Shown in pieces: positions 42,047-61,134 of a DNA stretch of 64,000 nucleotides. Each line of letters starts with the position of its first letter. The stretch's first letter is position 1. The translations under genes were made by a program, and so were the position numbers. Below the pieces are notes generated by a model, which did not search any database, was not told the origin of the DNA, and worked only from the letters and a program-made list of their open reading frames with translations. Source of the DNA: Pirellulales bacterium (GTDB lineage Bacteria; Planctomycetota; Planctomycetia; Pirellulales; PALSA-1355); the NCBI GenBank assembly GCA_022844125.1, contig JALHMI010000011.1, positions 124,001 to 188,000 of the forward strand. Reading direction: 5' to 3'.

Positions 42047-42082
42047 CTAAAGCCCGGGGGGATACTTTCCCCGGGAACGGCT
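42047..42082 (+). repeat. Dispersed palindrome family A, copy 1
   Basis: A 36-base unit (core TAAAGCCC... GGGAACGGCT) with a stem of ten pairs (seven of them canonical CCCGGGG/CCCCGGG, plus two G-T and an A-T) around loop TAC. It sits between two convergent genes. Relatives lie at 50237, 53161 and 60020. Confidence 0.7.
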
Positions 42083-42095
42083 GACTCACTCCCCG

Positions 42096-43319
42096 CTACA
42101 GCTTCAGATAAATCCCGTCCTTCTCCAGCTTGCGGATGAACAGGTACGTGATCCCAAAGTAGATCAAGAATCCGCAGGTTACGTACCAACCCGGCGAATC
42201 GCGCGGAATGAACGGGCTTACCGCGCCGTCGACCATCCCGTGCAGGATGTAGCCGACCAGGGCATTGGTCCCCAGCGTGCGGAACAAACCGAGCTGCCAG
42301 CCCCAGATGTCGCACGCGATATAAAAGAGCGCATACAGCGCGAGCGACAGTCCGCCGGCGAACGTGTGGTAGGAGAGCGTCGCCGCCCGCTGGCTCATCA
42401 TCCAGTAGTTGTGCTTGCGGTGCAGCGCGTCCGGCGGCGGGACGAACGGCGGTTCGGCCCAGGTGAGCCGCGCCGTCTCCATCCGCTCGCTCGCAGGAAT
42501 CACTGCATCCGGCGCATACCTTTGCTTGGCAAGCGCGGCGACTTGCTCCTCGGGCACGTCGTAGAGCGTCGTCAGGTTCGACAGGCCCCAGCCGGCGCCC
42601 ATTAGCAGCACGCCCCACACGATGATGCTCACCAGTCGCGGCGGGCCGTCCTTGCGCGTCACGGCGTCGCACGCCAGCGTTCCCAGAATCGTGGGAATCG
42701 TCCAGGCCAGAAAGCCCAACAGTCCGCCGTCGATGCCGGTTCGGCCGTCGATGACACCGTTGACCCAATCGAAATAGAACCAGTACGAGAGTGCGAAGTG
42801 CAGCGCGGCTGAGAACAGCATGTAGGCGATCCGCACCCGCGCGCCGGCGCGAATTACCGGCGTAATCCACAGCGAGGTGACCGCAATGTGCATCAGCGTC
42901 TGAAACCACGAGCCGCGAATCGAATCCCAGAGCGCGGTCAGCGGCCCCTTATCCAGGAACTGTTGCCAGGTATTGGCCGCTTGGGGCGCGTTATAGATCA
43001 CCAATGCCACCAGCGCGAGCCCCAGGAATCGCTGCACGACGTGCCAGTAGGCGCTGGCCAGACCATCGGCGTGCAGTCGTCTGCCGAACGTCAGTCGAAA
43101 GGCGAATCCCACCGCAAAAAAGAACTGCGGCATGATCGTGTCGGCGTAGCTGCAGAACGTGTTCTTGTGCGTCAGGATAATCGGCGTCGCCAGGTAGCCG
43201 CCCAGGAAGTTCACCAGAAACATTCCGGCCACGGTGTAGCCGCGAAACTGATCGAGCGAAGCGATGCGAGTGGAGGGCGCCTTCTTAATGGCGACCGGAC
43301 TGACAGAGGCAGTGGACAT
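42096..43319 (-). CDS. HGSNAT-like membrane acyltransferase (DUF5009/DUF1624-type)
   Basis: A 407-residue membrane protein with about ten to eleven hydrophobic segments. It starts with RIASLDQFRGYTVAGMFLVNF, the signature of heparan-alpha-glucosaminide N-acetyltransferase-like and DUF5009 proteins. Later helices carry DIWGWQLGLFRTLGTNALVGYI. These proteins move an acyl (usually acetyl) group across the membrane to sugars. The exact substrate is unknown, but the neighbouring deacetylase and esterase genes also act on acylated sugars. Converges with the deacetylase gene with palindrome A between them. Confidence 0.82.
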   Translation of the reverse strand: MSTASVSPVAIKKAPSTRIASLDQFRGYTVAGMFLVNFLGGYLATPIILTHKNTFCSYADTIMPQFFFAVGFAFRLTFGRRLHADGLASAYWHVVQRFLGLALVALVIYNAPQAANTWQQFLDKGPLTALWDSIRGSWFQTLMHIAVTSLWITPVIRAGARVRIAYMLFSAALHFALSYWFYFDWVNGVIDGRTGIDGGLLGFLAWTIPTILGTLACDAVTRKDGPPRLVSIIVWGVLLMGAGWGLSNLTTLYDVPEEQVAALAKQRYAPDAVIPASERMETARLTWAEPPFVPPPDALHRKHNYWMMSQRAATLSYHTFAGGLSLALYALFYIACDIWGWQLGLFRTLGTNALVGYILHGMVDGAVSPFIPRDSPGWYVTCGFLIYFGITYLFIRKLEKDGIYLKL

Positions 43320-43426
43320 GTTTTAGCGGCGGGGGGCGGGAGTGCACGTGGGGGTGTGAATGTGCATGATCGTAGCGGCCGGCAACAGCACCCCGCAATA
43401 ACGCCCCAGCACGATGCGAAAAAAAA

Positions 43427-43453
43427 GCACCGGGGAATGACTTCCCCGGCGCT
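43427..43453 (-). terminator. Terminator-type hairpin after the esterase gene
   Basis: A stem of CCGGGGAA/TTCCCCGG plus flanking GC pairs, with a T-run on the minus strand (A-run at 43419-43426), lies 37 bases past the stop of the esterase gene at 43490. A few T bases on the other side could also stop + strand transcription. Confidence 0.8.
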
Positions 43454-43489
43454 TTTCTGTTTGAAACGTTACTTGTTCGAACGCGGCGT

Positions 43490-44359
43490 CTACTTGCCGG
43501 CCAATTGCTTGTCGAACCACTCGGCAATCACGCCAACCTCTTCGTGAATCGTCGGCCAGGGATGCCCACCCCCCGCCTTGACGATCAACTGGCACTGCGC
43601 GCCGCATTCGTCGAGGGCTTTCTTGAGCATCTCCGACTGGTCGAGCGGCACCAGCGGATCGGCGTCGCCGTGAATGATCAGAAACGGCGGGGCCTCTTTC
43701 GTCGCCAGCAGCGCGGGACTGATTGCCTTCAGCCCTTCGATCAGCTTGGCGGTGTCCTTCGGCGCGTTGCCGTTGGGATAGAGCAGCGCCTTGACCATCG
43801 TGAACCGTTCCGGCGGCGAATTCTCGTCGATCTCCACGCCGCGGAAGTTCAAAAAGTTCGTGGGCGGAAAGAAAATCCCCACGGCCTGCACCCTGGTTTT
43901 GTCGTCCGCCGTCACCGCTACCAGCGAAGCCAGGTGCCCGCCGGCCGAAGCGCCCGCCAGGCCCAGCTTGTTCGGATCGACCTTGTACTCCTCGGCATGC
44001 TCCTTCACCCAGGCAATGCCCTGCTTCACGTGCTTGGCCATTTCGGCAAGCGTGAACTTGCTCTTCGAACCCGGGCGCACGCCGAACACGGTGTAGCCCT
44101 TGCCGCAGAAGATGTCATACATCTTCGCCATCCGGTGCTGTTCGATCTTGCTGCGGTCCGAATCCCAGGCGCCGCTTACGACGTCGACAATCGCCAGGCC
44201 GTTCGGCGTGCCGGTCGGTTCGAAGATATCCATCACGAGACCCACACCGTCGGTCTCGCCATAAACCACGTTCTTGGTTTGCTTATACGGCGAATCGGCC
44301 GCGAGCGCCGGCGCGCACACCGCCAGCAACATCAAAATGAGAAAACTGCGACGCAACAT
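43490..44359 (-). CDS. Secreted alpha/beta esterase, copy 1
   Basis: A 289-residue exported hydrolase with a signal peptide (about 1-21). The nucleophile elbow is GASAGG with Ser138. HGDADPLVPLDQSEML carries the catalytic Asp and GGGHPWP the catalytic His. It belongs to the BD-FAE/esterase-lipase group. A closely related gene of the same architecture lies at 53202. Function: hydrolysis of esters, probably of acylated sugars, outside the cytoplasm. GGAG precedes the ATG at 44359. Confidence 0.85.
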   Translation of the reverse strand: MLRRSFLILMLLAVCAPALAADSPYKQTKNVVYGETDGVGLVMDIFEPTGTPNGLAIVDVVSGAWDSDRSKIEQHRMAKMYDIFCGKGYTVFGVRPGSKSKFTLAEMAKHVKQGIAWVKEHAEEYKVDPNKLGLAGASAGGHLASLVAVTADDKTRVQAVGIFFPPTNFLNFRGVEIDENSPPERFTMVKALLYPNGNAPKDTAKLIEGLKAISPALLATKEAPPFLIIHGDADPLVPLDQSEMLKKALDECGAQCQLIVKAGGGHPWPTIHEEVGVIAEWFDKQLAGK

Positions 44360-44417
44360 AGAACTAAACTCCTGGCTGGATGGATTGCTATTTTGGTTGG
44401 GAAAGCGGGCAAGGCCG

Positions 44418-44619
44418 ACCGCAGAGGACGCCGAGGTTCGCAGAGGGAAAGACAGCGAGAAAGGGTGAAAGGCCAATGCCCTTCCTGCAACTCTCAGCCT
44501 TTTTCTTACCCCGAGTTCATCCGCATCTATCTGTGATTCTACCCCTGTTCTTCTTCCCTGGTTTCTCTCTTCTTACTTCTTCTTCCTCTCCCTCTGCGTA
44601 CCTCCGCGTTCTCTGCGGT
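44418..44619. repeat. Inverted pair of a dispersed 31-bp repeat
   Basis: Positions 44418-44448 are a near-perfect reverse complement (27 of 31) of 44589-44619. The unit (right-arm core CTCTGCGTACCTCCGCGTTC) is of the kind scattered as short repeats in many bacterial genomes. The 140 bases between are pyrimidine-rich and have no gene. Confidence 0.6.
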
Positions 44620-44627
44620 TAAACTCT

Positions 44628-46769
44628 CTATTCACCATCCCAATAGACCACGCTCTTCGACTCCGCGTTTTTAATTAGCTCGTCCTTCTGCAGGAAGTAC
44701 GTCGGTTTCATCGTCCCCTTGCTGAACACTCGCCGAGCCTGATCATCGAAGTGAGGGCTGGTTTCATGGTCGCTTTCGCCCAACGGAAGCACGCTCCACG
44801 ATTGCGGCGGGTTGGTGAGCAGCACGACTTGGGTTGAGGTTTGACCACCACGGCCGCGAAACTGTTTCGTCCCGTCAATCGGCTCGAAGCTGATCGCCCG
44901 CGGCGTGGCGATGTGGTCGTTTGAACCGCCGCCCACCGGCCAGGTCTTGTCGCTGCCGCGCCGGCCCACGCGATAGACTTCGCCAAACGGGACATCGACG
45001 ACTCCGAAGTCGGCCTTCAGTTTCTCGCCCGCTTCGCGCAGCTTGGCGATGCACAGCTCGTCGGTGACTTCGGCCGAAGGGGGCATCCCGAATCGATCGG
45101 CCTGCTTCATCTCACCGCCGAAGGCCTGCTTCCAGTACTTGTAGGCAATCGCGCCGGTTGCCTCCGGATCGCAGCGCCGGTTCCAGGCCGTGATCACGCC
45201 GTAGAGCTTCGCCAGTTCCGCGTCTTGTTTGACATCGGCGCTCGCGGCTTCCCAGGCTTTGCGCAGGCGGTCCTGCCACTTGTCCGCGCCGAACACCGCC
45301 GGGCTCATCGCGATTTCAATCGCGTCGGCAATCGTCACGCGATCGTCGTCATGCAACAGCTCGACGCACATCGCCGCCCGCTGGTGCAGCGGGCTGTCGT
45401 ACGCCTCGTCCATGCTCTTGAAGCCGTTGAACAGATACGGCGCCGCCGGATTCGGCGCGAGTTTGCAGCCCTTGAACAGAAACTGCGGACTGATGTTGCA
45501 GTTCTGCATGTACCCTTCTGGCGGATTCTCGATCTGGACCAGATCCTCGAAGGGATGGATGCCTTGCCAGTCATTCTTCGTCGAATTACCCACCGTGGCC
45601 CGCTTCCAGTCGGCGCCCGGCGCTCGCTTGGGAACGCGGCCCACTCGCACGTAGTAAATGTCTCCCTCGACCGTGCCGACCATGATGTTCTGCATCATGA
45701 GCTGCTGCATCGCCAGGGCTTTCTTCATCTCGTCCAGATTCTTGGCCGTCATCATCAGGTAGGTCTGATCCATCAGCCCCACTTCCTCGGCATACGGAAT
45801 CGCAAACACATAGGCCTTGCCGTCCTTACGGGCGATCACCGGTCCATGCCGCGTGTACAGGATGTCGACCTTCTTCTCTTCCGCGCCCGTTTCGTTCTTC
45901 ACGCGGATCGTCTCGGTCTTCACTTGCATGTCGACCCACTTGCCGTCGACCTTATACTGCTTGGGATTCTCGGGATTCAGTTCCTCCTCGAACACGTCCG
46001 AGGTATCCGGTCCGCCGGTGGTCATCGCCACCGAGCAGTAGCGGTTGTGCCCCAACCCCGGCAACGGCTGGCCGAGGATCGACATGCCGGAGATTTCAAG
46101 CTCGCCGCCGTACAACCGGACTTCATAGAACCGGAAGGCGTCGTACCACGAGAGGTGCGGATCGATCAGCGCGATCGGCGCGCCGTACGCACTCCGCTCC
46201 TTGGCGATGAGCCACTCGTTCGACCCGTGATACTCGACCGGATCACCCTTCAGTCCAATCCGCTCGAGGTCGTCGTTCGCTTCCCCCTCGGGCCAACCCC
46301 ACAACACATAGCGCCCCAGCGCCACGCACATCCACGGCTCCAGCCGCGGAGCCCAGGCCGGTACCTCCGAAGGATGCTCCGCCATGTACTGCTTCACCCC
46401 CGCCAGGTAAGCTTCAACGAGGGCCCGCGACTTGGGGGCGATCGTCGGATACTTGGCTTTCGCCACTTCTTCGTGCCGCCAGACGCGCTGCCGATAGTCG
46501 TCGCGCAAAAAGTCCGGCCCGAACGCTTCACTCATCCGGCCCGTGCAGCGGAGGTACTGCTTGAGCAACTCCTCCAACCGGTCCGCCGCCTGGGCATAAC
46601 CATTGGCAAAGCATGCCCCTTCGGCCGTCTCGGCATAAATGTGCGGCGTGCCAAACTCATCGCGATAGATCGTGATCTCTTCGCGGGCGGTAGCCCGCAG
46701 GGCAAATGTGGCAACAGTCAGGCCTACAAGAACAGCCGCCGCGAGCGGCCGAAGAGTGCGAACATGCAT
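44628..46769 (-). CDS. Penicillin acylase family Ntn hydrolase
   Basis: A 713-residue exported protein with a signal peptide (about 1-28). It follows the penicillin-amidase pattern: a small N-terminal part with EITIYRDEFGTPHIYAET and then the nucleophile Ser in HGSNEW (Ser183), which would be the first residue of the beta subunit after self-cleavage. Further marks are HLSWYDAFRFYEVRL, GQPLPGLGHNRYCSVAMTTGG and a C-terminal HFDDQ. Family members cleave amides such as acyl-homoserine lactones, penicillins or fatty-acyl amides. The exact substrate cannot be told. The ATG at 46769 is at the start of the signal peptide. Confidence 0.88.
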   Translation of the reverse strand: MHVRTLRPLAAAVLVGLTVATFALRATAREEITIYRDEFGTPHIYAETAEGACFANGYAQAADRLEELLKQYLRCTGRMSEAFGPDFLRDDYRQRVWRHEEVAKAKYPTIAPKSRALVEAYLAGVKQYMAEHPSEVPAWAPRLEPWMCVALGRYVLWGWPEGEANDDLERIGLKGDPVEYHGSNEWLIAKERSAYGAPIALIDPHLSWYDAFRFYEVRLYGGELEISGMSILGQPLPGLGHNRYCSVAMTTGGPDTSDVFEEELNPENPKQYKVDGKWVDMQVKTETIRVKNETGAEEKKVDILYTRHGPVIARKDGKAYVFAIPYAEEVGLMDQTYLMMTAKNLDEMKKALAMQQLMMQNIMVGTVEGDIYYVRVGRVPKRAPGADWKRATVGNSTKNDWQGIHPFEDLVQIENPPEGYMQNCNISPQFLFKGCKLAPNPAAPYLFNGFKSMDEAYDSPLHQRAAMCVELLHDDDRVTIADAIEIAMSPAVFGADKWQDRLRKAWEAASADVKQDAELAKLYGVITAWNRRCDPEATGAIAYKYWKQAFGGEMKQADRFGMPPSAEVTDELCIAKLREAGEKLKADFGVVDVPFGEVYRVGRRGSDKTWPVGGGSNDHIATPRAISFEPIDGTKQFRGRGGQTSTQVVLLTNPPQSWSVLPLGESDHETSPHFDDQARRVFSKGTMKPTYFLQKDELIKNAESKSVVYWDGE

Positions 46770-47000
46770 CGGAGGAGTGCCTTGGAAGCGAGAACGGCCG
46801 CGGCCCGATTTACCAGCGAGGGAGTGGCAAATGGCCGAAAACCCCAACCCAAGAGCGGGAGAGGGGACGGAGCGATTGTAAATCAGCCCGCAGACTGATG
46901 CAAAGAACCGCCCAATGCAAAGGATCGCCCAATGCAAAGAAACGAGCCGCTGCGAGGAATTGCCGGATCCGACTCCGGGCGGACTGCTCGGATTCGCCGG

Positions 47001-47114
47001 CTAAATCGCCCCACCGCGGTCATTCCGCGGGGCGGGAAGCGGCTTGGGCTGGGTCGCCAGATCCAGGACCAACAGCAAAACGGCACCAAAACCAAAAGCT
47101 GCTAAGAGGCTCAT
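47001..47114 (-). CDS. Possible small single-helix membrane protein
   Basis: A 37-residue frame: residues 1-20 are a hydrophobic helix (MSLLAAFGFGAVLLLVLDL) and the rest is Pro-rich with charged residues. The ribosome binding site is weak. No neighbour suggests a role. Such short proteins can be real but easily arise by chance. Confidence 0.35.
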   Translation of the reverse strand: MSLLAAFGFGAVLLLVLDLATQPKPLPAPRNDRGGAI

Positions 47115-47681
47115 AGACTCGTTGGGGGCAAGCGGACAATTCTTCTGTTCCGGGCGTTAGGATACACCCGGACGCAATTCTCGCAAGGTTAGTTGCCCTG
47201 ACAAGGCGTCGGCGTCACAAGTTTTTTTGCCCCGTCCAGCTCGGCAGTTGTTGCCAGCAGCCGACTCGGCAGACCTCGATTTCGCGGTCCCCGGACGAAG
47301 TTCGGCCCGGCGCGATCCCTCGATCCGTGGAAGGGACGGGGCCAAGATCGCACCGGCGGCGGCGAAGTACACCCCGGAAACCTTCCGCCCCCCGCCCGAC
47401 ATGGATTCGCCGGGCAACAAACCAGCCGACCAACCGCGAATCCTTCTGGGGATGAAGCCGGTTTCACGGCAGCTTAACGCTTGTGCGGCGAGAATCGCTT
47501 GAAACCGGCCCCCCAGCCTGCACGGTATATGCTCCTAACCTCGTTATTGGAGGGAAGTTGTTTGACACCGTACCACTCCAATGAGAAAGTGGCTTTGGGG
47601 GAGCTTTCGGGGCAGCCTGCGGTGACTCTGCACCCATCTTTCCCCGACCACCAGACGAGCCAGCACGAGAGGTCCGTGGCG
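47115..47681. other. Intergenic stretch without a convincing gene
   Basis: About 570 bases between the small frame and the FHA-GAF-PP2C gene. In-frame upstream extension of that gene to 47481 is possible but reads as low-quality sequence. No palindrome or promoter was recognised with confidence. Confidence 0.35.
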
Positions 47682-49358
47682 ATGGCGACTCTCGAGGTCT
47701 GCACCGGCACCGGCGGGCGCGAGCTGCACGAGCTAGCATCCGAGGAGATGCTGGTCGGACGCGACCAGTTTTGCGATATCGTCCTGCGGAACCATACGGT
47801 TTCGCGGCAGCACGCTCGGATTGTGCGCGCACCAGACGGCTACTACCTCGAAGACCTGGGCAGCCTGAACGGCACCTACGTCAACGGCCATCGCCTCGAA
47901 GGCCGCACCAAGCTCAAGGATGGCGACAAGATCCACATCTACGAGGTCGTGACGATCTTCCACTCGGGCGTGCCCCGCAACGAGGATGACGTCAACGAAA
48001 CGCTGGCCGACGTTCCGCTCCCCGAGGAGATCGCTCGCACGCGTTCGGCCGCCCGCGCAATGCTGGCCCCCGCGGCCGCTGGCAGTGTCGCGGCAGACTC
48101 CGCCAGCGAGGTTTCGCCGCAGGCCCGCTTTCGCGCCGCGCTTAAGATCTCGGCCGACTTCGAAGGTCAGCCCGATGTCGATCAACTCCTGCCGCGGATT
48201 CTCGACACGCTCTTCGAGATCTTTCCGCAGGCGGCCCGCGGCTACATCCTGCTCGAAGAGGGCACCGAAGGCCATCTCGTGCCTCGCGCGATCAAGCATC
48301 GTCAGAGCGAAGCCGGCCACAGCATGACGTTCGGGCCCATCAGCCGCAAAATGGCCCTCCACGTGATGGGTAGCGCGCAGCCGGTGCTGATGGACGACAC
48401 GCCGGCCGACGCGGCGGATGCAAATCAATCCGTGTTTGAAGTGCAGGTGCTCTCGATGATTTGTGCGCCGCTTAAGGGCGCCGCCCGCCGCCCTTTGGGG
48501 ATCATCTATCTCGACACGACTGAACTCGCGCGGCGGTTCACACAGGCCGATCTCGATGTCCTGGCGAGCGTCGCCGCGATGGCCGCCCAGGGGGTCGAAT
48601 CCGCCGGCGCGCAGCAAACGCCCTTCGATGGCGCCACCTATCAGCGGCAGCTCGGCACGGCCAAGCAGATGCAGCTCCAGTTCCTGCCTCAAAGCCGGCC
48701 GGAAGTTCCCGGCTACCAGTTCTTCGATTACTACCAGCCGGCCGACGAGGTGGGCGGAGATTATTTCGGCTACATCCCGCTGCCCGATGGCCGACTCGCA
48801 CTGGCGATTGGCGACGTGGCCGGCAAGGGCGTCTCGGCCGCGCTGCTGATGGCGCACTTCTCGGCCGAGGTCCGCTACTGCCTCGCGACCTGCGCTTCAC
48901 CGGCCGCCGCGGTCGATCAGCTCAATCTTGATCTCGCCAGCGAACTGGCAAACTACCACTTTGTCACGTTCGCGCTCTGCGTGCTCGATCCACGCGAGCA
49001 CAAGCTCACGATGGTCAATGCCGGCCACTTGCCGCCGCTTTTATTGCGCGGCGGCAAGCTCGAAGTGCTGTGCGGCGAAGGGGGACTGCCGCTCGGGTGC
49101 GACGCCGACCGGCGCTACGAACAAATCGAACTCCCGCTCGAGCCAGGCGACGCCGTCGTGCTCTATACCGATGGCATCACCGACGCGATGGACGCTGCCG
49201 GCACGGTCTATGGCGGCCAGCGATTGCAGCAAACGCTTCTCACCGCTCCCCGCAAGATCGAAGGCCTCGGCAGTGCACTCCTCACCGACGTGCAGCGCCA
49301 CGTCCGCGGCCGCCTGCAAAGCGACGACATCTGCCTGGTCTGCTTCGCCCGGGACTAG
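47682..49358 (+). CDS. FHA-GAF-SpoIIE phosphatase regulator
   Basis: A 558-residue cytoplasmic protein. Residues 1-95 are an FHA domain with the GR, SRQH (41-44) and NGT (63-65) residues needed to bind phosphothreonine. Residues about 150-310 form a GAF domain. Residues about 325-555 are a PP2C-type SpoIIE phosphatase: DEVGGDYFGY, IGDVAGKGVSAALLMA and YTDGITDAMD carry the metal-binding Asp residues. It probably receives a phosphorylated protein (perhaps from Ser/Thr kinases like that at 2782) and removes phosphate from an anti-sigma-type partner. The ATG at 47682 begins the FHA fold. Confidence 0.9.
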   Translation: MATLEVCTGTGGRELHELASEEMLVGRDQFCDIVLRNHTVSRQHARIVRAPDGYYLEDLGSLNGTYVNGHRLEGRTKLKDGDKIHIYEVVTIFHSGVPRNEDDVNETLADVPLPEEIARTRSAARAMLAPAAAGSVAADSASEVSPQARFRAALKISADFEGQPDVDQLLPRILDTLFEIFPQAARGYILLEEGTEGHLVPRAIKHRQSEAGHSMTFGPISRKMALHVMGSAQPVLMDDTPADAADANQSVFEVQVLSMICAPLKGAARRPLGIIYLDTTELARRFTQADLDVLASVAAMAAQGVESAGAQQTPFDGATYQRQLGTAKQMQLQFLPQSRPEVPGYQFFDYYQPADEVGGDYFGYIPLPDGRLALAIGDVAGKGVSAALLMAHFSAEVRYCLATCASPAAAVDQLNLDLASELANYHFVTFALCVLDPREHKLTMVNAGHLPPLLLRGGKLEVLCGEGGLPLGCDADRRYEQIELPLEPGDAVVLYTDGITDAMDAAGTVYGGQRLQQTLLTAPRKIEGLGSALLTDVQRHVRGRLQSDDICLVCFARD

Positions 49359-49378
49359 TCTGCTTCGCTCGCGATTAG
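49339..49378 (+). repeat. Tandem duplication at a gene end
   Basis: Two 20-base units, 49339-49358 and 49359-49378, share 16 of 20 bases; the first includes the stop codon of the phosphatase gene and the second has the same ending. It looks like a slippage duplication after the gene. Confidence 0.6.
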
Positions 49379-49740
49379 CGGGGTGCAACAAATCGCCAAC
49401 TCTGCAGCTGGTTTCTTCTGATCACATCGTCTTCTTTGTTGGAACGAGCGTTTGGCACGCCGCTCGCAAGCGTGTGGTGCGCCTCGCCATCTTCTCTAAC
49501 CCATTGCCGGGGCGAAACTTTCGCCACCCGCCTGGGCCCAGAAATTTGACAGCATTCCGCCCCGGAACCTAGACTTGTGGGGGGCGCTAGCGACTGCTCC
49601 CCATCATTCTTCATTTCCTGACATCCAAAGCTAGCGTCACAAGCGATCAACCGCTGCTGCCTCAGTTCGCGAAACGAATCCGCAAAGCCAACGCTTTTTA
49701 GATAGGCCGAGGGGCGACGTACTTTCCGCAGGAGGACGAT
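49379..49740. other. Intergenic stretch without a convincing gene
   Basis: About 360 bases between the phosphatase and the hemerythrin-like gene. No coding frame, known RNA or strong palindrome was found; a strong AGGAGG ribosome binding site just before 49741 belongs to the hemerythrin-like gene. Confidence 0.4.
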
Positions 49741-50217
49741 ATGGCAATCGCAATGCGCACCGTCTCGATTAATCCCGCTTTCCTCCGGGAGATCAAGGAC
49801 GACCACCACGAGCTGCGGCAATTGATCCACCACTCCTCGGCCATGCTCGATCACTCGGGTCCGGTAGAGATCGACTACCAACGTTTAGGCGAGCTGCTTA
49901 CCAAGCTGCGTGATCAACTGGCCATGCACTTCTCGCTCGAAGAAGCGTACGGCTACTTCGAAGACGCGATCATGGTCGCGCCACACTTGTGTCGCCGGGC
50001 CGAGTCGCTGCGCTCGCAGCACTTCGACCTGTTTGCCGAAATGTGCCGCGTCGTGGAGACGTCGGAGCAACTGCTCTACCACGAGATGCCCGCCCGGCTG
50101 CTGCAGCGGCTGGCCGGCCAATATCACTTGTTCCTCAGCCGCTTCCACGAGCACGAAGCTGCCGAGTGCGACCTGATTCTGGAAGCCTTCAACGACGACA
50201 TCGGCACCGGCGATTAA
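49741..50217 (+). CDS. Hemerythrin-like HHE domain protein
   Basis: A 158-residue four-helix protein. The likely iron ligands are the His/Glu residues in KDDHHELRQLIHHS, MHFSLEEAYGYF, RSQHFDLFAEM and FHEHEAAECDL. These fit the hemerythrin/HHE pattern and suggest a di-iron site for oxygen or NO sensing or storage. No signal peptide. A strong AGGAGG site precedes the ATG. It stands alone, followed by palindrome A. Confidence 0.82.
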   Translation: MAIAMRTVSINPAFLREIKDDHHELRQLIHHSSAMLDHSGPVEIDYQRLGELLTKLRDQLAMHFSLEEAYGYFEDAIMVAPHLCRRAESLRSQHFDLFAEMCRVVETSEQLLYHEMPARLLQRLAGQYHLFLSRFHEHEAAECDLILEAFNDDIGTGD

Positions 50218-50236
50218 GCGCCTTTGCTGCCGTACG

Positions 50237-50273
50237 CTCTAAAGCCAGGGGAATACATTCCCCTGGACCTGCT
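50237..50273 (+). repeat. Dispersed palindrome family A, copy 2
   Basis: A perfect 9-bp stem (CCAGGGGAA at 50245-50253, TTCCCCTGG at 50258-50266) around TACA. The third pair is A-T here but G-C in the other copies, a paired change that keeps the stem. Confidence 0.75.
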
Positions 50274-50379
50274 TTCCGCGAGCGCTCACTCCGCGCGCCA
50301 ATTGCACCGCGCCCGCGTGACGACTATCCTGGCGGTGCAAGCCAGCCCTCCCGCCTTAGCTCCACAGGATGCCCTTCCG

Positions 50380-51660: not shown

Positions 51661-51752
51661 CGCGGGCACCAGAACCGTTTAGTCCGGCGGCATCGCCGAC
51701 GGCGCGTCCTGCACACCGACCAACTTTGATGCACCAACTGGGAGTAACTCCG

Positions 51753-52502
51753 ATGCTTTCTTTATTCTTCGCCGCCGTGCTGCTCCTGCTTCCCGCCGCT
51801 TCCCTGGCCGCCGACTACAAAGTCGAGAAGTTCGACAACGCTGGCTTCGTGTCGATCTTTAACGGCCAGAACCTCGACGGCTGGCACGTCAGTTCGCAGA
51901 CCGGCCACAGCCGTGCGAGCAAGAACCAATCCGGCGGCCGCTGGGTCGTCGAAGACGGCGCGATCATCGGCAGCCAGGACATTCCCAACAACGGCGGCAT
52001 CGTCCTCACCGACAAACAGTACCGCAACTTCGAAGTCGCCCTGGAGATGAACAACGACTTTGTCCCTGACAGCGGGCTGTTCCTCCGCAGCAACGAACGC
52101 GGTCAGGCCTACCAGTACATGATCGACTACCACGCCGGCGGCAACCTGGCCGGCGTCTATGGCGAAGGCCTCTCCGGCGGCATCCATCACCGCAACTTCA
52201 GCTTTCTGGAGAAGGTCACCGACATCAAACAGGACGCCGACCCGTTCCCGCTCCCCGTCAAGCCGGCCGACTGGCCCAAGTTCTGGCAGCACGGCAAATG
52301 GAACGAGCTTCGCGCCCGGATCGAAGGCAACCCGCCGAAGGTCACGACCTGGATCAACGGCGTCCGGTTTATGGAGTTTCAAGACACCGAGAAGCGGCAC
52401 GCCGACTCCGGCGGCATCGCCCTGCAGGTTCACGGTGGCGGTGGCGACCTCACCAAGCATTACGTCCGCTATCGCAACGTCCGGGTCAAAGAACTGCCAT
52501 AA
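51753..52502 (+). CDS. Exported 3-keto-disaccharide hydrolase (DUF1080)
   Basis: A 249-residue protein with a signal peptide (about 1-19). It is a jelly-roll DUF1080 domain: FVSIFNGQNLDGWHVS, DFVPDSGLFLRS, YQYMIDYHAGGNLAGVYGE, KWNELRARIEGNP and SGGIALQVHGGGG. Family members cleave 3-keto-sugars or related glycosides. The neighbouring Gfo/Idh/MocA protein may supply the 3-keto group by oxidation. A GGGAG ribosome binding site precedes the ATG at 51753. Confidence 0.88.
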   Translation: MLSLFFAAVLLLLPAASLAADYKVEKFDNAGFVSIFNGQNLDGWHVSSQTGHSRASKNQSGGRWVVEDGAIIGSQDIPNNGGIVLTDKQYRNFEVALEMNNDFVPDSGLFLRSNERGQAYQYMIDYHAGGNLAGVYGEGLSGGIHHRNFSFLEKVTDIKQDADPFPLPVKPADWPKFWQHGKWNELRARIEGNPPKVTTWINGVRFMEFQDTEKRHADSGGIALQVHGGGGDLTKHYVRYRNVRVKELP

Positions 52503-52774
52503 CAGTTCATCACGTTGTGCGCTGCTGCTGGCTAGCCGTCGCCTTGTTGCGCGCGTCTCGTGCACGCAACAGTTCGTCATCATTTCGAAAACACTTCGCG
52601 CGACTGCTATCACACGCACGAATTTCGAAACGTCCACATTTGCGGGCGTTCACGTGAATTCTTTGCGTTGGCACACCCCGTGCGATTATCTCGCGTCGAG
52701 GGGGAATGAATCCAAGGGGAAGCGTGCTCGTGAGAGTCGCTTCTCGACTGCACCATTGCGAAGGGAGCCTTGTC

Positions 52775-53086
52775 ATGCGACGCGTGTTTGTAGGACTTGC
52801 GTGTGTAGCGGTACTTGTGTTTGCGGGAACGTCAACGGCCTTGGCCAAGGGACCGCACCACGGCGGTCACGGTGGTCATGGTCGCGGCCCCGGCGGGCAC
52901 TGCAACTGGAATCACCACGGCCATTACCATCATGCGTATCGGTTGCCGCCGCCCCGGGTTTTTCGCCCGCCGGTGTGTGGCCCGGTTTACCCGGTCTATC
53001 CGGCGCCGGTCGTGGCCTATCCGGCATACCCGCGGATGGGCTTCGGCCTGGGCGGTTCAAACTTCTCGTTCTGGTATCAGCAGTGA
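52775..53086 (+). CDS. Small exported His/Gly/Pro-rich protein
   Basis: A 103-residue exported protein with a signal peptide (about 1-24). The mature N-terminal part is Gly- and His-rich (HHGGHGGHG), followed by NHHGHYHH and a Pro/Tyr-rich part (VYPVYPAPVVAYPAYP), ending in a Gly-rich tail. His-rich stretches suggest metal binding, but no family was recognised. A clear AAGGGAG ribosome binding site precedes the ATG, and a terminator follows 28 bases after the stop. Confidence 0.7.
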   Translation: MRRVFVGLACVAVLVFAGTSTALAKGPHHGGHGGHGRGPGGHCNWNHHGHYHHAYRLPPPRVFRPPVCGPVYPVYPAPVVAYPAYPRMGFGLGGSNFSFWYQQ

Positions 53087-53114
53087 CCGGCTGACCCACG
53101 CGAGCGCATCAAAA

Positions 53115-53150
53115 AAACGCCGGATCGAGCCCGCGCTCGGTCCGGCGTTT
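53115..53150 (+). terminator. Intrinsic terminator after the His-rich gene
   Basis: A 16-base arm (AAACGCCGGATCGAGC) at 53115-53130 pairs with 53135-53150 (one mismatch) around a four-base loop; it is flanked by A-runs on one side and GTGTTTC on the other. It serves the + strand gene and perhaps also the - strand gene at 53202. Confidence 0.85.
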
Positions 53151-53160
53151 GTGTTTCTAT

Positions 53161-53199
53161 CTCTCCAAAGCCGGGGGAAAACTTTCCCCCGGAACTGCC
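53161..53199 (+). repeat. Dispersed palindrome family A, copy 3
   Basis: A perfect 9-bp stem (CCGGGGGAA at 53171-53179, TTCCCCCGG at 53184-53192) around AACT. It lies between two convergent genes and is next to a terminator hairpin. Confidence 0.75.
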
Positions 53200-53201
53200 T
53201 T

Positions 53202-54182
53202 TCACTTCGCGGCCTGTTCGGCCGGCTTGTCTGCCGCGGGCTTGGCCTCTTCCGGCTTCGCTTCCTTGTCGAGCAAGTGCTGATCGAACCAGTCGGCAAA
53301 CGCCCCGAAGTCCTGGATCAGCATCGATGGCCAGACGCCGTGCCCGGCGCCTTTCTTGACGACGAGCTCAGCCGGCACACCCTCTTCCTTGAACTTCTCG
53401 ACGATGATCTCCGATTGCTGCAGCGGCACCAGGTCGTCGGCGTCGCCGTGCATGATCAAGGCCGGAGCATCGCCCTCGCTCACGTGATAGATCGGCGAGA
53501 CTTCCTTCACGATCTTCTCGCGCGTCTCCATGTCGACGGGCACGAACGTTTTCGTCTGTGCGTCGTAGGTCCTGAAATCGAACGGCGCCTTGAATTTGTG
53601 CTCCGGCTCGATGCCCAGCGACTTCACGCCCGGCTGGCCGTAGTTCAAAAAGTCGGTCGGCGGAAAGAAACATGCCACGGCCTGCACGCAGCTGCTGGCC
53701 CGATCGACCGGGTCCTTGGCGTTCGGATCGCCTTCGCAACCGGCGCAGCCCAGCATCAGCGACAGGTGGCCGCCGGCCGAAGCGCCCGTGATGCCGATCT
53801 TGTCTCCGTCGATCTTGAAGTCGTCCGCATGCGTGCGGATGTAACGCACCGCGCGGTTGACGTCTTCCACGCACTCGGGAATCGTAAACTTCGGCTGGCT
53901 GCCATGCACCACCGCAAACACAGTGTAGCCGCGGTTGAGCAGCGTCAAGGCGAACGCCGGTTGAATCTGTTCGTGATTCGACACCCAGCCGCCGCTAATG
54001 CACACGATCACCGCCGCGCCGTTTTGCTCGGCCGGCGTGAACACGTCCATCGTCAGCGCGGTCCCGAACTTGCGGCCATAGATGATGTCTTGCTGCCTTG
54101 TCCACTTGGCTGGCTTAGCCGCTTCCGCCGCACTCACCAACGCCATTAGCACCAACAGTGCACCGACCAGCACACGCTTCAT
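53202..54182 (-). CDS. Secreted alpha/beta esterase, copy 2
   Basis: A 326-residue exported hydrolase with a signal peptide (about 1-22). The nucleophile elbow is GASAGG with Ser135; HGDADDLVPLQQSEI has the Asp and GAGHGVWP the His. It is a paralogue of the esterase at 43490, with the same fold order and flanking segments (FFPPTDFLNY). The C-terminus has an added Lys/Ala/Glu-rich tail of about 25 residues. The substrate is not known. It has a terminator and palindrome A downstream on its strand. Confidence 0.85.
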   Translation of the reverse strand: MKRVLVGALLVLMALVSAAEAAKPAKWTRQQDIIYGRKFGTALTMDVFTPAEQNGAAVIVCISGGWVSNHEQIQPAFALTLLNRGYTVFAVVHGSQPKFTIPECVEDVNRAVRYIRTHADDFKIDGDKIGITGASAGGHLSLMLGCAGCEGDPNAKDPVDRASSCVQAVACFFPPTDFLNYGQPGVKSLGIEPEHKFKAPFDFRTYDAQTKTFVPVDMETREKIVKEVSPIYHVSEGDAPALIMHGDADDLVPLQQSEIIVEKFKEEGVPAELVVKKGAGHGVWPSMLIQDFGAFADWFDQHLLDKEAKPEEAKPAADKPAEQAAK

Positions 54183-54415
54183 GACTCACGCCCCCAGAAG
54201 ATTGGTCACACGCGAAAGATTCTGCAGCCCCTGCCGTTACCGCCTTCCAGTCTACCCGCCCGCTAAGCCCAGAAAAAGCAGTGGATTGGCCCGCTTTTCC
54301 CCTCGGCGAAGGTCGGCCGGCGAGATTTCTTGCTCTCCCGGCAGATCTGCTACACTGACCCCCGCGCATCGCGGGGTTTGCGGTTTCCTATTGAGCCGTG
54401 AAGCTGGAGGATCCA

Positions 54416-55354
54416 ATGCCGACTCGCATCGAGACCCGACGCAATCACATTTCACGGCAATTGGCACTCGCCTGCTTGATTGCGGCCGCTGTCTCCTTCG
54501 CGACCGCTGCTGCGGAAGACTCCGCGTCGGCCGACAAGCCCGTCTTACCACCACTCGGCAAGGTATCGCGGAACATTCTCAAAGAGCCGACCTACAAGGC
54601 GACTCCTCGCTACGCGCTGATGGTCTTCGGCTTGCAGGCCGAAACCCGGGTGTGGATGGTCGAGGACGGTAACGTCCTTTATGTCGACAAGAACGCCAAC
54701 GGCGACCTGACCGATGACGGGCAGCCGCTCGAACCATCGAACGTTCGCCAGCTCAACCAATCAGGCACACAGCGAGATTACAACTACTTGCTGGATGAGA
54801 TTGTGCCGGCAGACGGTTCGGCAAAGCACACGAAACTCGATCTACGGCGCTGGAACTACGAGAATCCCGAGGATCGCTACGGTTTGTCGATCAATGTCGA
54901 GGGTTCCATTCCGATGTACGCGGGCTGGTTTGGAACATTCTGGGCGAAGTCGCCGGCCGATGTGGACATCCTGTACTTCGGCGGACCGCTGAAGCCCCGA
55001 AAGCTTCGCGAGAAAGTGTTCCGGCATGGAAGTCGAGAAAGATTGAGCTTTGCCTTTGAGAACCAGCCGGGCGAGCCGGGCAGTACGACTCGGCTCAACT
55101 ATGAAGCACTCCCGCCCAACGTCATCCCGCGAGTTGAGATCGACTGGCCCGTCCCAGCCGGCAGTCCGCCGCTGCGGACGACCGAGACGCTTACCGAGCG
55201 CTGCTGTTATTGGGAGTTCTACAGCTCGACCTTCCGTGTTCCGAAAGAAGCGGTGAATGGCACTGCTAAGGTGACCTTCTCGTTCACCGGCGGCTGGCTA
55301 CCCTTCGAGCTGGCAACTCCGTACATCGCGGTGCCCGTGCAAGCGTCGAAGTAG
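54416..55354 (+). CDS. Exported hypothetical protein
   Basis: A 312-residue protein with an N-terminal signal peptide preceded by an arginine-rich stretch. The mature part is predicted beta-rich (VDKNANGDLTDDGQPLEPSN resembles a calcium-binding-like loop with DKNANGDL). It recalls planctomycete exported proteins without known function. A GGAGG ribosome binding site precedes the ATG at 54416. It stands alone on the + strand, convergent with the nitrilase gene. Confidence 0.65.
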   Translation: MPTRIETRRNHISRQLALACLIAAAVSFATAAAEDSASADKPVLPPLGKVSRNILKEPTYKATPRYALMVFGLQAETRVWMVEDGNVLYVDKNANGDLTDDGQPLEPSNVRQLNQSGTQRDYNYLLDEIVPADGSAKHTKLDLRRWNYENPEDRYGLSINVEGSIPMYAGWFGTFWAKSPADVDILYFGGPLKPRKLREKVFRHGSRERLSFAFENQPGEPGSTTRLNYEALPPNVIPRVEIDWPVPAGSPPLRTTETLTERCCYWEFYSSTFRVPKEAVNGTAKVTFSFTGGWLPFELATPYIAVPVQASK

Positions 55355-55419
55355 AGGCGCGAGCCGGCGCTCGATCGAGTCTGGGGTTTAGCCGCAATTC
55401 CAAGTAGAAGTCGGGTGCT

Positions 55420-56202
55420 TTAGAGTAATCCCAAAAACTCCCCGCGAATGTCCTGTAGCGCCGGGAACTTCTCCCGATAGGCCAGCAGCGGCTCGCGCTC
55501 GATCGTCGCCACCAGCAGCTCGGCCTGGGAACTGCATGAGGCCAGCGGCACTCCCTTGGGATCCAGAATCACGCTGTGCCCGGCGTAGGTTACGTACGGA
55601 TCGGCCCCGACGCGGTTCACCCCCACCAGGTAACACTGGTTTTCGATCGCCCGGGCCGGTAGCAGGGCCCGCCAGTGCGAGTCGCGTGCTTCCGGCCAAC
55701 TGGCGATCACCACTAGCAGCTCCGCTCCGCGGACTGCGGCGTGTCGAAACACCTCGGGAAACCGCAGGTCGTAACAAACCAGCGGTGCAATCTTGAATCC
55801 GCCCCACTCGAACACCACGACGCCGTCGCCGCCAGCATAGTGCTTCGTCTCACCGCCATAAGAGAAGGGATGGATTTTAGAGTACCGCGCGAGCAGCTTT
55901 CCCGCCGGATCGAACACGACGGCCTGATTCAAGCCGCGCCCATCCGCCCCGCGCGTCACCACGCCGCCCACAACGGCCGATTTGTGCTCGCTCGCCAGTT
56001 CCGCCAGAAACGCGTGCGTCGGGCCATCCTCCTGCTCGGCAATACCGGCCACGTTCATGCTGAAACCGACTGCAAACATCTCCGGCAGCACGATGAGCCC
56101 GCCCGGCTCGACGTTGCCTTGGGCCAGTTGCTCGCGCACCCGGGCGAAGTTCGCCTGTTTGTCTTCCCACACGATGTCCGATTGCACGGCGACGATTTGC
56201 AT
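55420..56202 (-). CDS. Nitrilase-superfamily amidase, probable omega-amidase
   Basis: A 260-residue C-N hydrolase. The catalytic triad is visible: Glu41 in LPEMF, Lys109 in YSKIHPF, and Cys143 in LVCYDLRFPE. The SKIHPFSYGGE segment is typical of the YafV/Nit2/MtnU omega-amidases, which hydrolyse alpha-ketoglutaramate or the keto-methionine-related amide. The ATG at 56202 gives the normal length. It is followed upstream on the same strand by an aminotransferase gene after 76 bases, which suits the omega-amidase role. Confidence 0.85.
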   Translation of the reverse strand: MQIVAVQSDIVWEDKQANFARVREQLAQGNVEPGGLIVLPEMFAVGFSMNVAGIAEQEDGPTHAFLAELASEHKSAVVGGVVTRGADGRGLNQAVVFDPAGKLLARYSKIHPFSYGGETKHYAGGDGVVVFEWGGFKIAPLVCYDLRFPEVFRHAAVRGAELLVVIASWPEARDSHWRALLPARAIENQCYLVGVNRVGADPYVTYAGHSVILDPKGVPLASCSSQAELLVATIEREPLLAYREKFPALQDIRGEFLGLL

Positions 56203-56233
56203 GAAACGTATACTCGGAGTTATTAGTGGGTGC

Positions 56234-56264
56234 CACGGGTGGCCGCGCCAGCGGCTCACCCGTG
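56234..56264 (+). repeat. Intergenic hairpin between nitrilase and aminotransferase genes
   Basis: CACGGGTG (56234-56241) pairs with CACCCGTG (56257-56264) around GCCGCGCCAGCGGCT. It lies in the 76-base gap of a two-gene unit and could affect the upstream and downstream expression, or be a dispersed repeat. Confidence 0.5.
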
Positions 56265-56278
56265 ATCGTTGGAGTCGA

Positions 56279-57442
56279 TCACTTCACAATCGCATTCAAT
56301 CCCTTCACCAACCGCCCGATTCCCTCGGCGATCGTCGCCCGCTCGAGCGCCCCGTACGCCACTCGCAACGTGCAACCCTGCTCGATGCCGAACGTTGTCC
56401 CCGGGATGACCGCCACGCCGTGCTCGCGCACCAATCGCTCGACGACGTCCATCGCGGCGAGCGGGGTATCGACGCTAACCAGAAAATAAAACGCCCCTAG
56501 CGCCGGCGGGATCCTACAGAACGATCGAACCGCGGCAAGCTCCTCAAGCACCATCGACCGCACTTCGGCCACCCGCGCCAGGTTCTCCCGCCGGTACGAA
56601 GCCGGCGCCCGCAACGCCCCCAGCGCCGCATGCTGCGACACCACCGGCGGACAGATCAGGATCGTGTCCTGCGCCTTGCGAACCGCGACGGTCAGCGCCT
56701 CGGGAATCACCATGTATCCGATCCGCCAGCTCGCGAAGCCATACGCCTTGGAGAATGAGTACAAGGAAATCGTGTGCTCCGCCGAACCGGCGAGCGAAGC
56801 CGGCGAAAAATGCTCCGCGCCGTCGTACACGAAGTATTCATACGCCTCATCGTTGATATGGTAGACGTCGCGCTCCTTGCACAGCCGATTCACGGCCGTG
56901 AGCGATTCGCGCGAGTACACCGCCCCCGACGGGTTGTTCGGCGAGATCGTGACCACGGCCCGGGTGCGCGATGTGATTGCCGCTGCGATCGCCGGCAAGT
57001 CAAGCTGATACTCGGCATCCAGCGGTACGATCACGGCCCGGCAGTTGAGCATCGCCAGGGCCATTTCGTGATTGAAGTAATACGGCGCCAGCAGGATAAT
57101 TTCGTCACTCGGATCGGCAATCGACAGGATCGCGTTGAAGAACGCCATGTTCCCGCCGGCCGTCACCACCACCCGGTTGCTGGCGCTGATCACGACGCCG
57201 TTCTCTGCCATCAGCTTGCCGCTGAGCATTTCGACCAGGGGGGCGATGCCTTCCACGGCGTGGTACTTGTGGTTCAGCGGCTCGGCCGCCATCGGCTGCA
57301 CGGCCTCGAGCGCCTGCCGCGGCGGACCGTAGTGCACCACGCCCTGGCCCAGCGAGATCGTGCCGGGATGCCGACGGATCAGCTCGGCGACGACCGGAAT
57401 GATCGGCGTCTGCACGTCCTGCATGCGTTGGGAAAGATGCAT
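56279..57442 (-). CDS. PLP-dependent class I/II aminotransferase
   Basis: A 387-residue aminotransferase of the AspC fold class. SLGQGVVHYGPP, TAGGNMAF, SPNNPSGAVYSRE and the PLP lysine in YSFSKAYGFASW (Lys232) are present. It resembles glutamine- or methionine-related transaminases (such as those in methionine salvage) that give alpha-keto amides as co-products. The nearby nitrilase would then hydrolyse the keto amide. The substrate is inferred from the pairing, not from the sequence alone. Confidence 0.88.
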   Translation of the reverse strand: MHLSQRMQDVQTPIIPVVAELIRRHPGTISLGQGVVHYGPPRQALEAVQPMAAEPLNHKYHAVEGIAPLVEMLSGKLMAENGVVISASNRVVVTAGGNMAFFNAILSIADPSDEIILLAPYYFNHEMALAMLNCRAVIVPLDAEYQLDLPAIAAAITSRTRAVVTISPNNPSGAVYSRESLTAVNRLCKERDVYHINDEAYEYFVYDGAEHFSPASLAGSAEHTISLYSFSKAYGFASWRIGYMVIPEALTVAVRKAQDTILICPPVVSQHAALGALRAPASYRRENLARVAEVRSMVLEELAAVRSFCRIPPALGAFYFLVSVDTPLAAMDVVERLVREHGVAVIPGTTFGIEQGCTLRVAYGALERATIAEGIGRLVKGLNAIVK

Positions 57443-57694
57443 CGACTATGGCCGTTCGAATAAGGGTCCGCATCGTAGCCGCGGAAGGTGCCAGCAGCAC
57501 CGATGATAGCGTCTCGTCGCGAGACCCACCATGCGAGGCCGTTCCCGCCGTCCCTGGCCAGAAACTGACCTCGGCTCCTTCTGCGTGACGTTTTCGTAAC
57601 TCGGGCGACTTGAACCCCCATTCGTCTTCCGAAGCAATGGGCAATCGGCTACATAGACGCAGCTTTCTCGCCCAAATTCCTCGGGGCCATCGCC

Positions 57695-58957
57695 ATGCCC
57701 GCGCGAGTCTTTTGCCTGTCGCTGTCGACGCTCCTGTTCATCACGCTCGTGGTCAGCGAGCTCGCAGCTCAAACTCCGCGCGAGCTCGCCGCTGCCCGCA
57801 GTTGGCTCGTCGAAAGCGAACTGGCCACCAGCGGCATCAAGAGCCCGCAGGTCCTGGCGGCGATGCGCGAGGTGCCGCGCCACGAGTTCGTTCCCGCCGA
57901 GTTGCGACCCTATGCCTACTTCGACACGACGCTGCCGATCGGCCACGGGCAGACCGTTTCGCCACCCTACATCGTGGCCTGGATGACCGAACAGCTTGAC
58001 CCGCAGCCCGGCGAGCGCGTGCTTGAGATCGGCACCGGCAGCGGCTATCAGGCGGCAGTGCTCAGCCGCCTGGCCAAGGACGTCTATACGATCGAGCTGC
58101 ATCCCGAACTGGCTCGGATGGCGACAGATGCAATCGCGCGGGTAAAGTACAAGAACATCCACGTCCGCCAGGGAGACGGCTTTCAAGGCTGGCCCGAAGC
58201 GGCCCCGTTCGACAAGATCATCGTCACCTGCTCTCCCGAGCAAGTGCCGACGCCACTCGCCGAGCAACTGCGCGAAGGGGGACGGATGCTGATCCCCATC
58301 GGCGAGGGCTTTCAGCAAAACCTCTGCGTGCTGGTGAAGGAAGGGGGCAAGCTTCGCGTCACCTCTCGCACTCCGACCTACTTTGTGCCGATGACCGGTG
58401 TCGCGGACACCCTTCGCAGTCCGACTTCGAACCTGGCGATCACGCCGCTAATTAACGGCAATTTCGAAGAGCTGCTTTCGCCGGGCGTGCCGGCCGCCTG
58501 GTTTTACCTCAGGCAGGCTCAGCTAGCTCCCAGCACGGAGCCGAACCATCCGGGACAGTGCCTGCTGTTCACCAACGCGGTCCCCGGCCGCAGCTCGCAG
58601 GCACTGCAGTCGCTAGGCGTGCAAGGTGATCGCGTCCGCCTGATCACCGTTCAAAGTTGGGTTATGTGTAAGGATGTTCAGCCGGTGGACGCCGCCAACC
58701 CGCGCGACGGTGCCAAGATTCTCGTCACGTTTTTCGACGCCGATCGCAAGACGCTTGACGAACAGATCGTCGGTCTCTGGCGCGAAGACACGGCGTGGAA
58801 AAAGCACATCGGGGTCATCAAAGTACCTCCCACGACGATCGGCATGACCGTGGCCATCGGCCTGTTCGGGGCTACCGGCGAGTTCCGGTGCGATGACATC
58901 GTGGTCCTCCCGGCGCAGGAGCGCGACTGGTCGCGGTTCGGTACGGCCCGCCGCTAG
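57695..58957 (+). CDS. pcm: Exported protein-L-isoaspartate methyltransferase fused to a C-terminal beta domain
   Basis: A 420-residue protein with an N-terminal signal peptide (about 1-25). Residues 30-225 are a PIMT domain: PRHEFVP, TLPIGHGQTVSPPYIVA and VLEIGTGSGYQAAVLS (SAM loop, 109-124). Residues about 254-415 form a beta-sandwich domain with NGNFEELLSPGVPAAWFY, similar to CBM_4_9-type carbohydrate-binding modules. PIMT normally repairs damaged Asp residues inside the cytoplasm, so an exported, fused form is unusual. Alone on the + strand. Confidence 0.88.
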   Translation: MPARVFCLSLSTLLFITLVVSELAAQTPRELAAARSWLVESELATSGIKSPQVLAAMREVPRHEFVPAELRPYAYFDTTLPIGHGQTVSPPYIVAWMTEQLDPQPGERVLEIGTGSGYQAAVLSRLAKDVYTIELHPELARMATDAIARVKYKNIHVRQGDGFQGWPEAAPFDKIIVTCSPEQVPTPLAEQLREGGRMLIPIGEGFQQNLCVLVKEGGKLRVTSRTPTYFVPMTGVADTLRSPTSNLAITPLINGNFEELLSPGVPAAWFYLRQAQLAPSTEPNHPGQCLLFTNAVPGRSSQALQSLGVQGDRVRLITVQSWVMCKDVQPVDAANPRDGAKILVTFFDADRKTLDEQIVGLWREDTAWKKHIGVIKVPPTTIGMTVAIGLFGATGEFRCDDIVVLPAQERDWSRFGTARR

Positions 58958-58983
58958 TCTCCCGATTGTCAAAGGACACATCG

Positions 58984-59853
58984 TCATCGCAGCGGCGCCC
59001 GGTCGCTCGACCAGCTTTTCACGGCCAGCGTCGTGTGCCCTTGGCGGATCTTCGCCGAAAACGCCGGATCGTCGCGATACCGATACGCGATCTCATTGAT
59101 CCGCGCGCCCTCCTTCGTCCGCTCGAAATTCTGGTCGATCTTGATCAGCTTCAGATCGTTTGCCAGCTCGTCCGAGAACGCCGGGAACAGCACCTGGTAC
59201 CCGTACGGCACCTTGTTCGGCGCGATCTCGTTCACGTGTCGCACAATGTTCGTCGTGCAGTTGTTGGTGATCAGGTTATATGACTCGGGCTCCGCAGCCA
59301 GCTTGTTCGCCCGCTTCAGCATGCTCGTAAAGAGCTGCTGCATCTGCTCGCGCGAAGCTTGCGCCCGATACACATACACGTCCGACATCCAGTGAATCGT
59401 CCGCAGTTGGATCAGGTCGCGTTCGTCCCCCACCACGTAGATCAGCTCGGTGGGCTGCGTGAAGCTCTTGATCGGGTCGAAATCGTCGCCGGGCTTGCGG
59501 CGCATCTCGACGCTCACCGCCACGTAATCCTGCCCATCGAATCCGAAGCTCAGGAACGTGTGGGCGCCGCCGGGCACGTCCGGAAAGGGCACCACGATGA
59601 AGTCGACCGAGTCCAACTTCTGCAGGTCGAAGGTCTTGTCGTAGTGATGCACCGTGTAGTCGTCGGCCGTGCGATACTCGGTGTTGCGGATGTTGTGCAC
59701 CGTGATCTGGCTGCCGCTGAAGTCCGCCGTCGGCGCAATCGCGTGGTTCGGCGACCACTCGCTTTTCATGCCGCGGCAGCCCTGCGCGCACACGACCAGC
59801 GCCGCGCAAACGGCGAGCGCCTGCATTTTGGCAGTCAGCTTGAGCATCGGCAT
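58984..59853 (-). CDS. DUF4105-type lipoprotein
   Basis: A 289-residue lipoprotein whose signal ends near VCAQGC. YNLITNNCTTNI and the surrounding region match the DUF4105 (Lnb N-terminal periplasmic) domain, which has a conserved Asn-Cys pair and is often exported. DFIVVPFPDVPGGAHTFLSFGF and the later NEIAPNKVPYGYQ also fit. Function not settled; family members are linked to lipid or envelope handling. The ATG at 59853 was taken; a GTG three bases upstream and another ATG six bases downstream are possible. Confidence 0.75.
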   Translation of the reverse strand: MPMLKLTAKMQALAVCAALVVCAQGCRGMKSEWSPNHAIAPTADFSGSQITVHNIRNTEYRTADDYTVHHYDKTFDLQKLDSVDFIVVPFPDVPGGAHTFLSFGFDGQDYVAVSVEMRRKPGDDFDPIKSFTQPTELIYVVGDERDLIQLRTIHWMSDVYVYRAQASREQMQQLFTSMLKRANKLAAEPESYNLITNNCTTNIVRHVNEIAPNKVPYGYQVLFPAFSDELANDLKLIKIDQNFERTKEGARINEIAYRYRDDPAFSAKIRQGHTTLAVKSWSSDRAPLR

Positions 59854-60019
59854 CACCGGCCATCTGGTCCTTCAGGCGGCCGCACCAGAACTGGCATTAT
59901 CGAACAAGACGTGAGGGCGCATCGGCCCGGCGCAGTTAATAGCACCGCCGGGCTGTTTCGCACAAGAGCGGTGCACCGAGTCCGCGAAGCGAAATCACTG
60001 CTAGCGACACACACGCCAG

Positions 60020-60055
60020 CATAAAGCCGGGGGAATACCTTCCCCCGGAACGCTC
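60020..60055 (+). repeat. Dispersed palindrome family A, copy 4
   Basis: A perfect 9-bp stem (CCGGGGGAA at 60027-60035, TTCCCCCGG at 60040-60048) around TACC, in the gap between two - strand genes. Confidence 0.75.
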
Positions 60056-61073: not shown

Positions 61074-61134
61074 CTTGAAAGTCTCCTGCCTACTGATCAT
61101 GCGTCACTTACTGCTTGGCGAATGTTCCAGCTTG

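Follow-up and report, generated by a model that had tools for sequence, protein, structure and literature searches.

Four similar palindromes lie dispersed between the genes of a window of 64,000 nucleotides from a Pirellulales bacterium (C11:124001-188000 of a 6.44-Mb assembly), which raises the question of what they are and at which level, RNA or DNA, they are recognized. The initial annotation of this stretch held that paired base changes implied selection on a folded form, either an RNA hairpin or a DNA cruciform. The four copies, named family A, were recovered, all on the plus strand and all intergenic, with refined limits:

42047..42079, plus strand: family A copy 1, CTAAAG-CCCGGGGGGATACTTTCCCCGGG-AACG, flanked by the convergent genes 41104-42030(+) and 42096-43319(-)
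50239..50270, plus strand: family A copy 2, CTAAAG-CCAGGGGAATACATTCCCCTGG-ACCT, 21 bp 3′ of the stop codon of 49741-50217(+), the next gene being co-directional
53112..53155, unstranded: ordinary intrinsic terminator, possibly bidirectional (A-run, GC-rich hairpin, T-rich tail), directly before copy 3, separate from family A and read directly from the sequence
53165..53196, plus strand: family A copy 3, CCAAAG-CCGGGGGAAAACTTTCCCCCGG-AACT, in a convergent gap, with the stop end of 53202-54182(-) 5 bp away
60021..60052, plus strand: family A copy 4, ATAAAG-CCGGGGGAATACCTTCCCCCGG-AACG, both neighbours on the minus strand, 19 bp off the stop end of 60072-61100(-)

The stems of 9-10 bp described for these copies were borne out, as were the extra G-T pairs of copy 1 and the location of two copies (1 and 3) between convergent genes. 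The base change reported at the third stem pair is real, copy 2 having an A-T pair where copies 3 and 4 have G-C; however, copy 1, which had been grouped with the latter, has a C-G pair. DNA folding gave z scores of -3.7 to -4.5 for three copies and of -2.2 for copy 1, whose weaker value is due to its G.T pairs. A strict family A pattern had no chance match in 100 shuffles.

The window also contains a classical intrinsic terminator on the minus strand at 43432-43460, located 3′ of gene 43490-44476(-) and composed of AAAGC, a GC stem with GGGGAA..TTCCCC and T8; it is similar to the family A core, yet bears a T-run. The minus-strand genes 43490-44476 and 53202-54182, ~9.8 kb apart, share stretches that are 77-83% identical and are likely paralogues. 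At 26665-27531, repeat units of ~36-70 nt with 63-77% identity possibly encode, on the minus strand, EF-hand-like calcium-binding repeats.

Family A is neither limited to the four copies of the window nor devoid of covariation when many copies are aligned, the two outcomes that the initial annotation had named as telling against it. Covariance-model searches of the 6.44-Mb genome revealed ~75 clear copies and ~90 with the weaker ones. A five-copy model gave 72 matches at E below 0.001, a scan of genome stretches provided 77 copies for alignment, and a model built on this alignment recovered ~90 distinct sites, a total that is approximate since some weak palindromic matches fall on both strands. 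The consensus is CTAAAG-CCNRGGGAATACYTTCCCYNGG-AAC or, expanded, CTAAAG-CC N R GGGAATACYTTCCC Y N GG-AAC, a 32-bp unit in which the AAAG foot is unpaired, the stem spans 9 bp, the GAATACYTTC core is conserved and the tail reads AAC. Beyond these 32 bp the flanks are unconserved, hence the unit is discrete. At two sites (L089:8734-8765 and L057:10565-10596), a family A copy immediately follows a left half-copy that terminates in AATACC(TT), which possibly marks insertion or slippage junctions.

The 77-copy alignment lends strong support to the proposal that the folded form is under selection. Six of the nine stem pairs have changed on both sides and any matched pair is tolerated at the variable positions, as in pair 3 (A-U 31, C-G 26, G-C 13, U-A 1) and pair 4 (G-C 63, A-U 10). 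The covariation score is 0.266, versus 0.082 in shuffled alignments and no more than 0.06 for slid partners; the alignment leans toward structure, the model being partly built on it, but no slide comes near. Similarly, 96.8% of the cells are paired, versus 87.2% after shuffling. The AAAG foot is present in a large majority of the 77 copies, and both foot and core (AAAG, GAATAC, YTTC) are conserved alongside the stem, suggesting that the unit is recognized by its sequence and not by pairing alone.

No comparable family was found in other genomes. A covariance-model search of 56 relatives, none of the same genus, returned one lone match, in genome G020, and a search of 296 genomes of the order with the larger model, again including none of the same genus, found no comparable family; in the latter search 24 candidates were scored per genome, so low-copy relatives could escape. 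Elsewhere in the order, what the larger model matched appears to be terminators or lone palindromes without an HUH gene. Neither an empty site nor a recently inserted copy was observed. The exact family A pattern had no match in 84,980 species, and Rfam gave nothing at the gathering threshold and chance-level matches only at a permissive one. Family A is thus probably a species-specific population of ~90 non-coding 32-bp units, as part of the REP-like reading developed below.

The genomic context of the copies was drawn from sixty stretches, each no longer than 20 kb, with gene calls from our own gene caller (81% coding density). Among the 77 copies, 74 are intergenic, and stop codons face them at a median distance of 26-28 bp, start codons at 121 bp. 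Convergent gaps are enriched and divergent gaps avoided: 29 elements are in convergent, 38 in tandem and 7 in divergent gaps (n=74), while the background gaps of at least 40 bp comprise 99 convergent, 401 tandem and 142 divergent ones (n=642). In five copies, the element and a gene call share a few bases, and the stop codon apparently lies within the first bases of the element, as expected of insertion at gene ends. Most copies are single and located just 3′ of genes. Roughly one copy in four belongs to an inverted pair whose feet point outward; at least 10 such pairs exist, all in plus-then-minus order and ~40-60 bp from start to start.

The orientation of the copies follows replication and not transcription. 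Single copies in tandem context run with the direction of the genes in 15 cases and against it in 19. By contrast, 45 of 56 single copies lie on the strand of negative GC skew (C-rich, non-leading; 20-kb skew, p 5e-6), a proportion that reaches 37 of 39 for copies in regions with |skew| above 0.03 (p 3e-9). This bias is present in both tandem orientations, and along contigs C11, C12 and C14 the orientation flips, with a few exceptions, wherever the skew changes sign. Because rpoB and the 16S gene are both on the G-rich strand, this strand is taken as leading, on the basis of these two markers only. A bias by replication without a bias by transcription argues for a DNA process acting on one strand. 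Hence, instead of the RNA hairpin or DNA cruciform initially put forward, the counts for genes (15 versus 19) and for replication strand (37 of 39) favour a third option, a hairpin of single-stranded DNA.

An element acting at the RNA level, such as a terminator or a stabiliser of mRNA 3′ ends that is conserved in transcripts and was duplicated around the genome, would account for copies ~25 bp past stop codons, for the enrichment in convergent gaps and for a covarying stem in which some G-U pairs are tolerated; in addition, terminator palindromes elsewhere in the order share a similar AAAGCC..GG core. However, intrinsic terminators combine a GC stem with a T-run in gene sense, whereas the family A stem has no T-run behind it, the tail is AAC and the flank is unconserved. 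The loop and the foot are conserved in addition to the stem, the orientation is balanced relative to genes and skewed relative to replication, and placement at 3′ ends is likewise found for the REPs of other bacteria (PMC3733652). An RNA element is therefore unlikely. The polarity with respect to replication and the conserved core could also point to sites of a chromosome-organising protein, i.e., polar motifs for a DNA translocase, a nucleoid protein or gyrase. Yet one copy per 70 kb is too sparse, the distribution is uneven and the polarity is cancelled in inverted pairs; moreover, such systems are conserved whereas family A is confined to one species, and strong stem covariation is unexpected of a double-strand site. 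This explanation is accordingly very improbable.

We infer mobility, a single-strand mechanism and a type of enzyme: family A probably consists of REP-like elements that a Y1 HUH transposase spreads in single-stranded form. The unit would fold into a hairpin once exposed as single-stranded DNA at the replication fork; the transposase would then read foot and stem, cut the unit and paste it elsewhere. The likeliest type of enzyme would be an IS200-like TnpA of subclass 1.2, whose genes have the same kind of palindrome at their ends ([AT]AGCC...GG). Single-strand transposition would explain why the copies keep a fixed orientation with respect to replication yet disregard that of the genes. One mismatch concerns polarity: AAAG lies on the C-rich strand, but the guide of an IS608-like element would sit on the lagging-strand template (G-rich). 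The active strand may be the one that reads GTT-hairpin-CTTTAG.

The absence of a transposase noted by the initial annotation holds for the window itself, which contains none, but a Y1 transposase gene (C11:196605-197048) is located 8.6 kb past its end. This gene carries inverted TTAATAGCCGGGGGTGGAAACCCCCGGAAAC on both flanks; its ends, TAGCCGGGGGTGGAAACCCCCGG, are related to family A with a distinct loop and occur in about six copies in the genome. The 148-aa protein displays the motifs DHVH, WQ and Y---Q--HH and passes the IS200 model NF033573 (71 bits, cut-off 55), but fails the RAYT model NCBIfam REP_Tyr_transpos NF047646 (31 bits versus a cut-off of 80), and a sequence search matched IS608/ISDra2-type structures only. 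In length, motifs and low copy number it resembles TnpA_Y1 subclass 1.2 and fits the signature of that subclass (Table 1, PMC6006769), the assignment being by signature and not by the authors' HMM. The sole model match among the 56 relatives is in G020, where a homologue 51% identical to this gene is located 68 bp away, and the arrangement is the same in genome G036. The ends of several homologues have AAAG feet, including AAAG-CCAGGGG..CCCCTGG-AAC in G020 and G036. The closest kin of family A are the palindromes present in inverted orientation at the ends of IS200-like subclass 1.2 transposase genes. Judging from these sequences, a subclass 1.2 TnpA is our best guess for the mover of family A, a link drawn from a likeness of ends that is partly a GC-rich palindrome, which can converge.

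A related reading, which differs from this one in the enzyme only, attributes these REP-like elements to another Y1 transposase, lost or unlinked and not of subclass 1.2. The genome has ten Y1_Tnp genes of several kinds; no exact family A copy borders any of them, several carry their own unrelated palindromes, and REPtrons can be lost (PMC3733652). On the other hand, the AGCC-N-RGGG..CCCYNGG-AA layout fits the ends of subclass 1.2 and departs from the palindromes (GGGTGGC or GGCACACG) of the other Y1 genes, which makes another enzyme rather doubtful. The Y1 genes at L044, L047 and L049 have distinct palindrome arrays (GGGTGGC/CACTGACA, GGGTGCCACTGC and GGCACACGCCGTGTGCC), indicating that several REP-like systems coexist.

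Subclass 1.2 was described as occurring chiefly in Cyanobacteria and Bacteroidetes, with no REP listed (Quentin 2018, PMC6006769). Following the retrieval of 80 further homologues from many phyla, 100 loci had usable flanks, and ~80% of them have inverted palindromic ends, at variance with the published absence of REP-like flanks. At an alignment score of at least 19, matching inverted ends were found in 78 of the 100 loci, versus 3% with shuffled partners, the better control; direct repeats amounted to 27, a figure that is not a clean null since palindromes match in both senses. AG-footed hairpins are present in 142 of 203 flanks, where the reversed-sequence control is high (65); 128 of the 142 begin with CC and 10 have an AAAG foot. 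The AGCC palindrome pattern is common in 14 relatives, in which the reversed pattern is almost absent. By eye, the ends of subclass 1.2-type tnpA genes (L112-L220) often comprise a small palindrome, the AGCC palindrome, ~25 nt and, close to the gene, another small palindrome. We tentatively suggest that IS200-like subclass 1.2 HUH transposases have composite inverted palindromic ends across phyla and may be the founders of REP-like populations with non-GTAG feet, of which family A could be one, with a fixed polarity at the fork opposite to the simple IS608 expectation.

Family A would represent an independent REP-like family outside the GTAG and CGTC superfamilies, and its bias by replication strand, with none by transcription, would provide a clear genomic signature of what has long been suspected of REPs, namely that they spread as single strands. 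Family A also draws attention to a transposase subclass until now regarded as REP-free. In IS608 and ISDra2 (IS200/IS605), the transposase recognizes a hairpin and a tetranucleotide just 5′ of its foot, and insertion is biased by replication strand. Family A has a similar layout of hairpin and tetranucleotide foot and a similar bias; however, it encodes nothing, is without pairs of left and right ends, and has AAAG on the strand opposite to the IS608 expectation. By their description, TIRtrons, i.e., Y1 genes (TIRYT genes) with flanking inverted repeats, some of which are self-complementary and some genomically repeated (Di Nocera 2013, PMC3733652), are also alike, but family A copies are lone 32-bp palindromes without the remainder of the ends.

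The REP/REPIN elements associated with RAYTs (TnpA_REP; GTAG and CGTC superfamilies; PMC2817692, PMC3116915, PMC3733652) are covarying palindromes of 20-40 bp, one end of which forms an unpaired foot; they lie between genes near gene 3′ ends, occur as singles and inverted pairs, are species-specific and comprise several families per genome, and family A resembles them in all these respects. As in REPs, its palindrome is kept via compensatory changes and its many copies are intergenic, single or in inverted pairs, the latter with feet outward like REPINs. Its foot is nevertheless AAAG and not GT[AG]G or CGTC, its tail is AAC, no RAYT lies between exact inverted copies, and the nearest enzyme is IS200-like and not a RAYT equivalog. 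Family A thus probably works like a REP and is, by its foot and the lack of a linked RAYT, not a canonical member.
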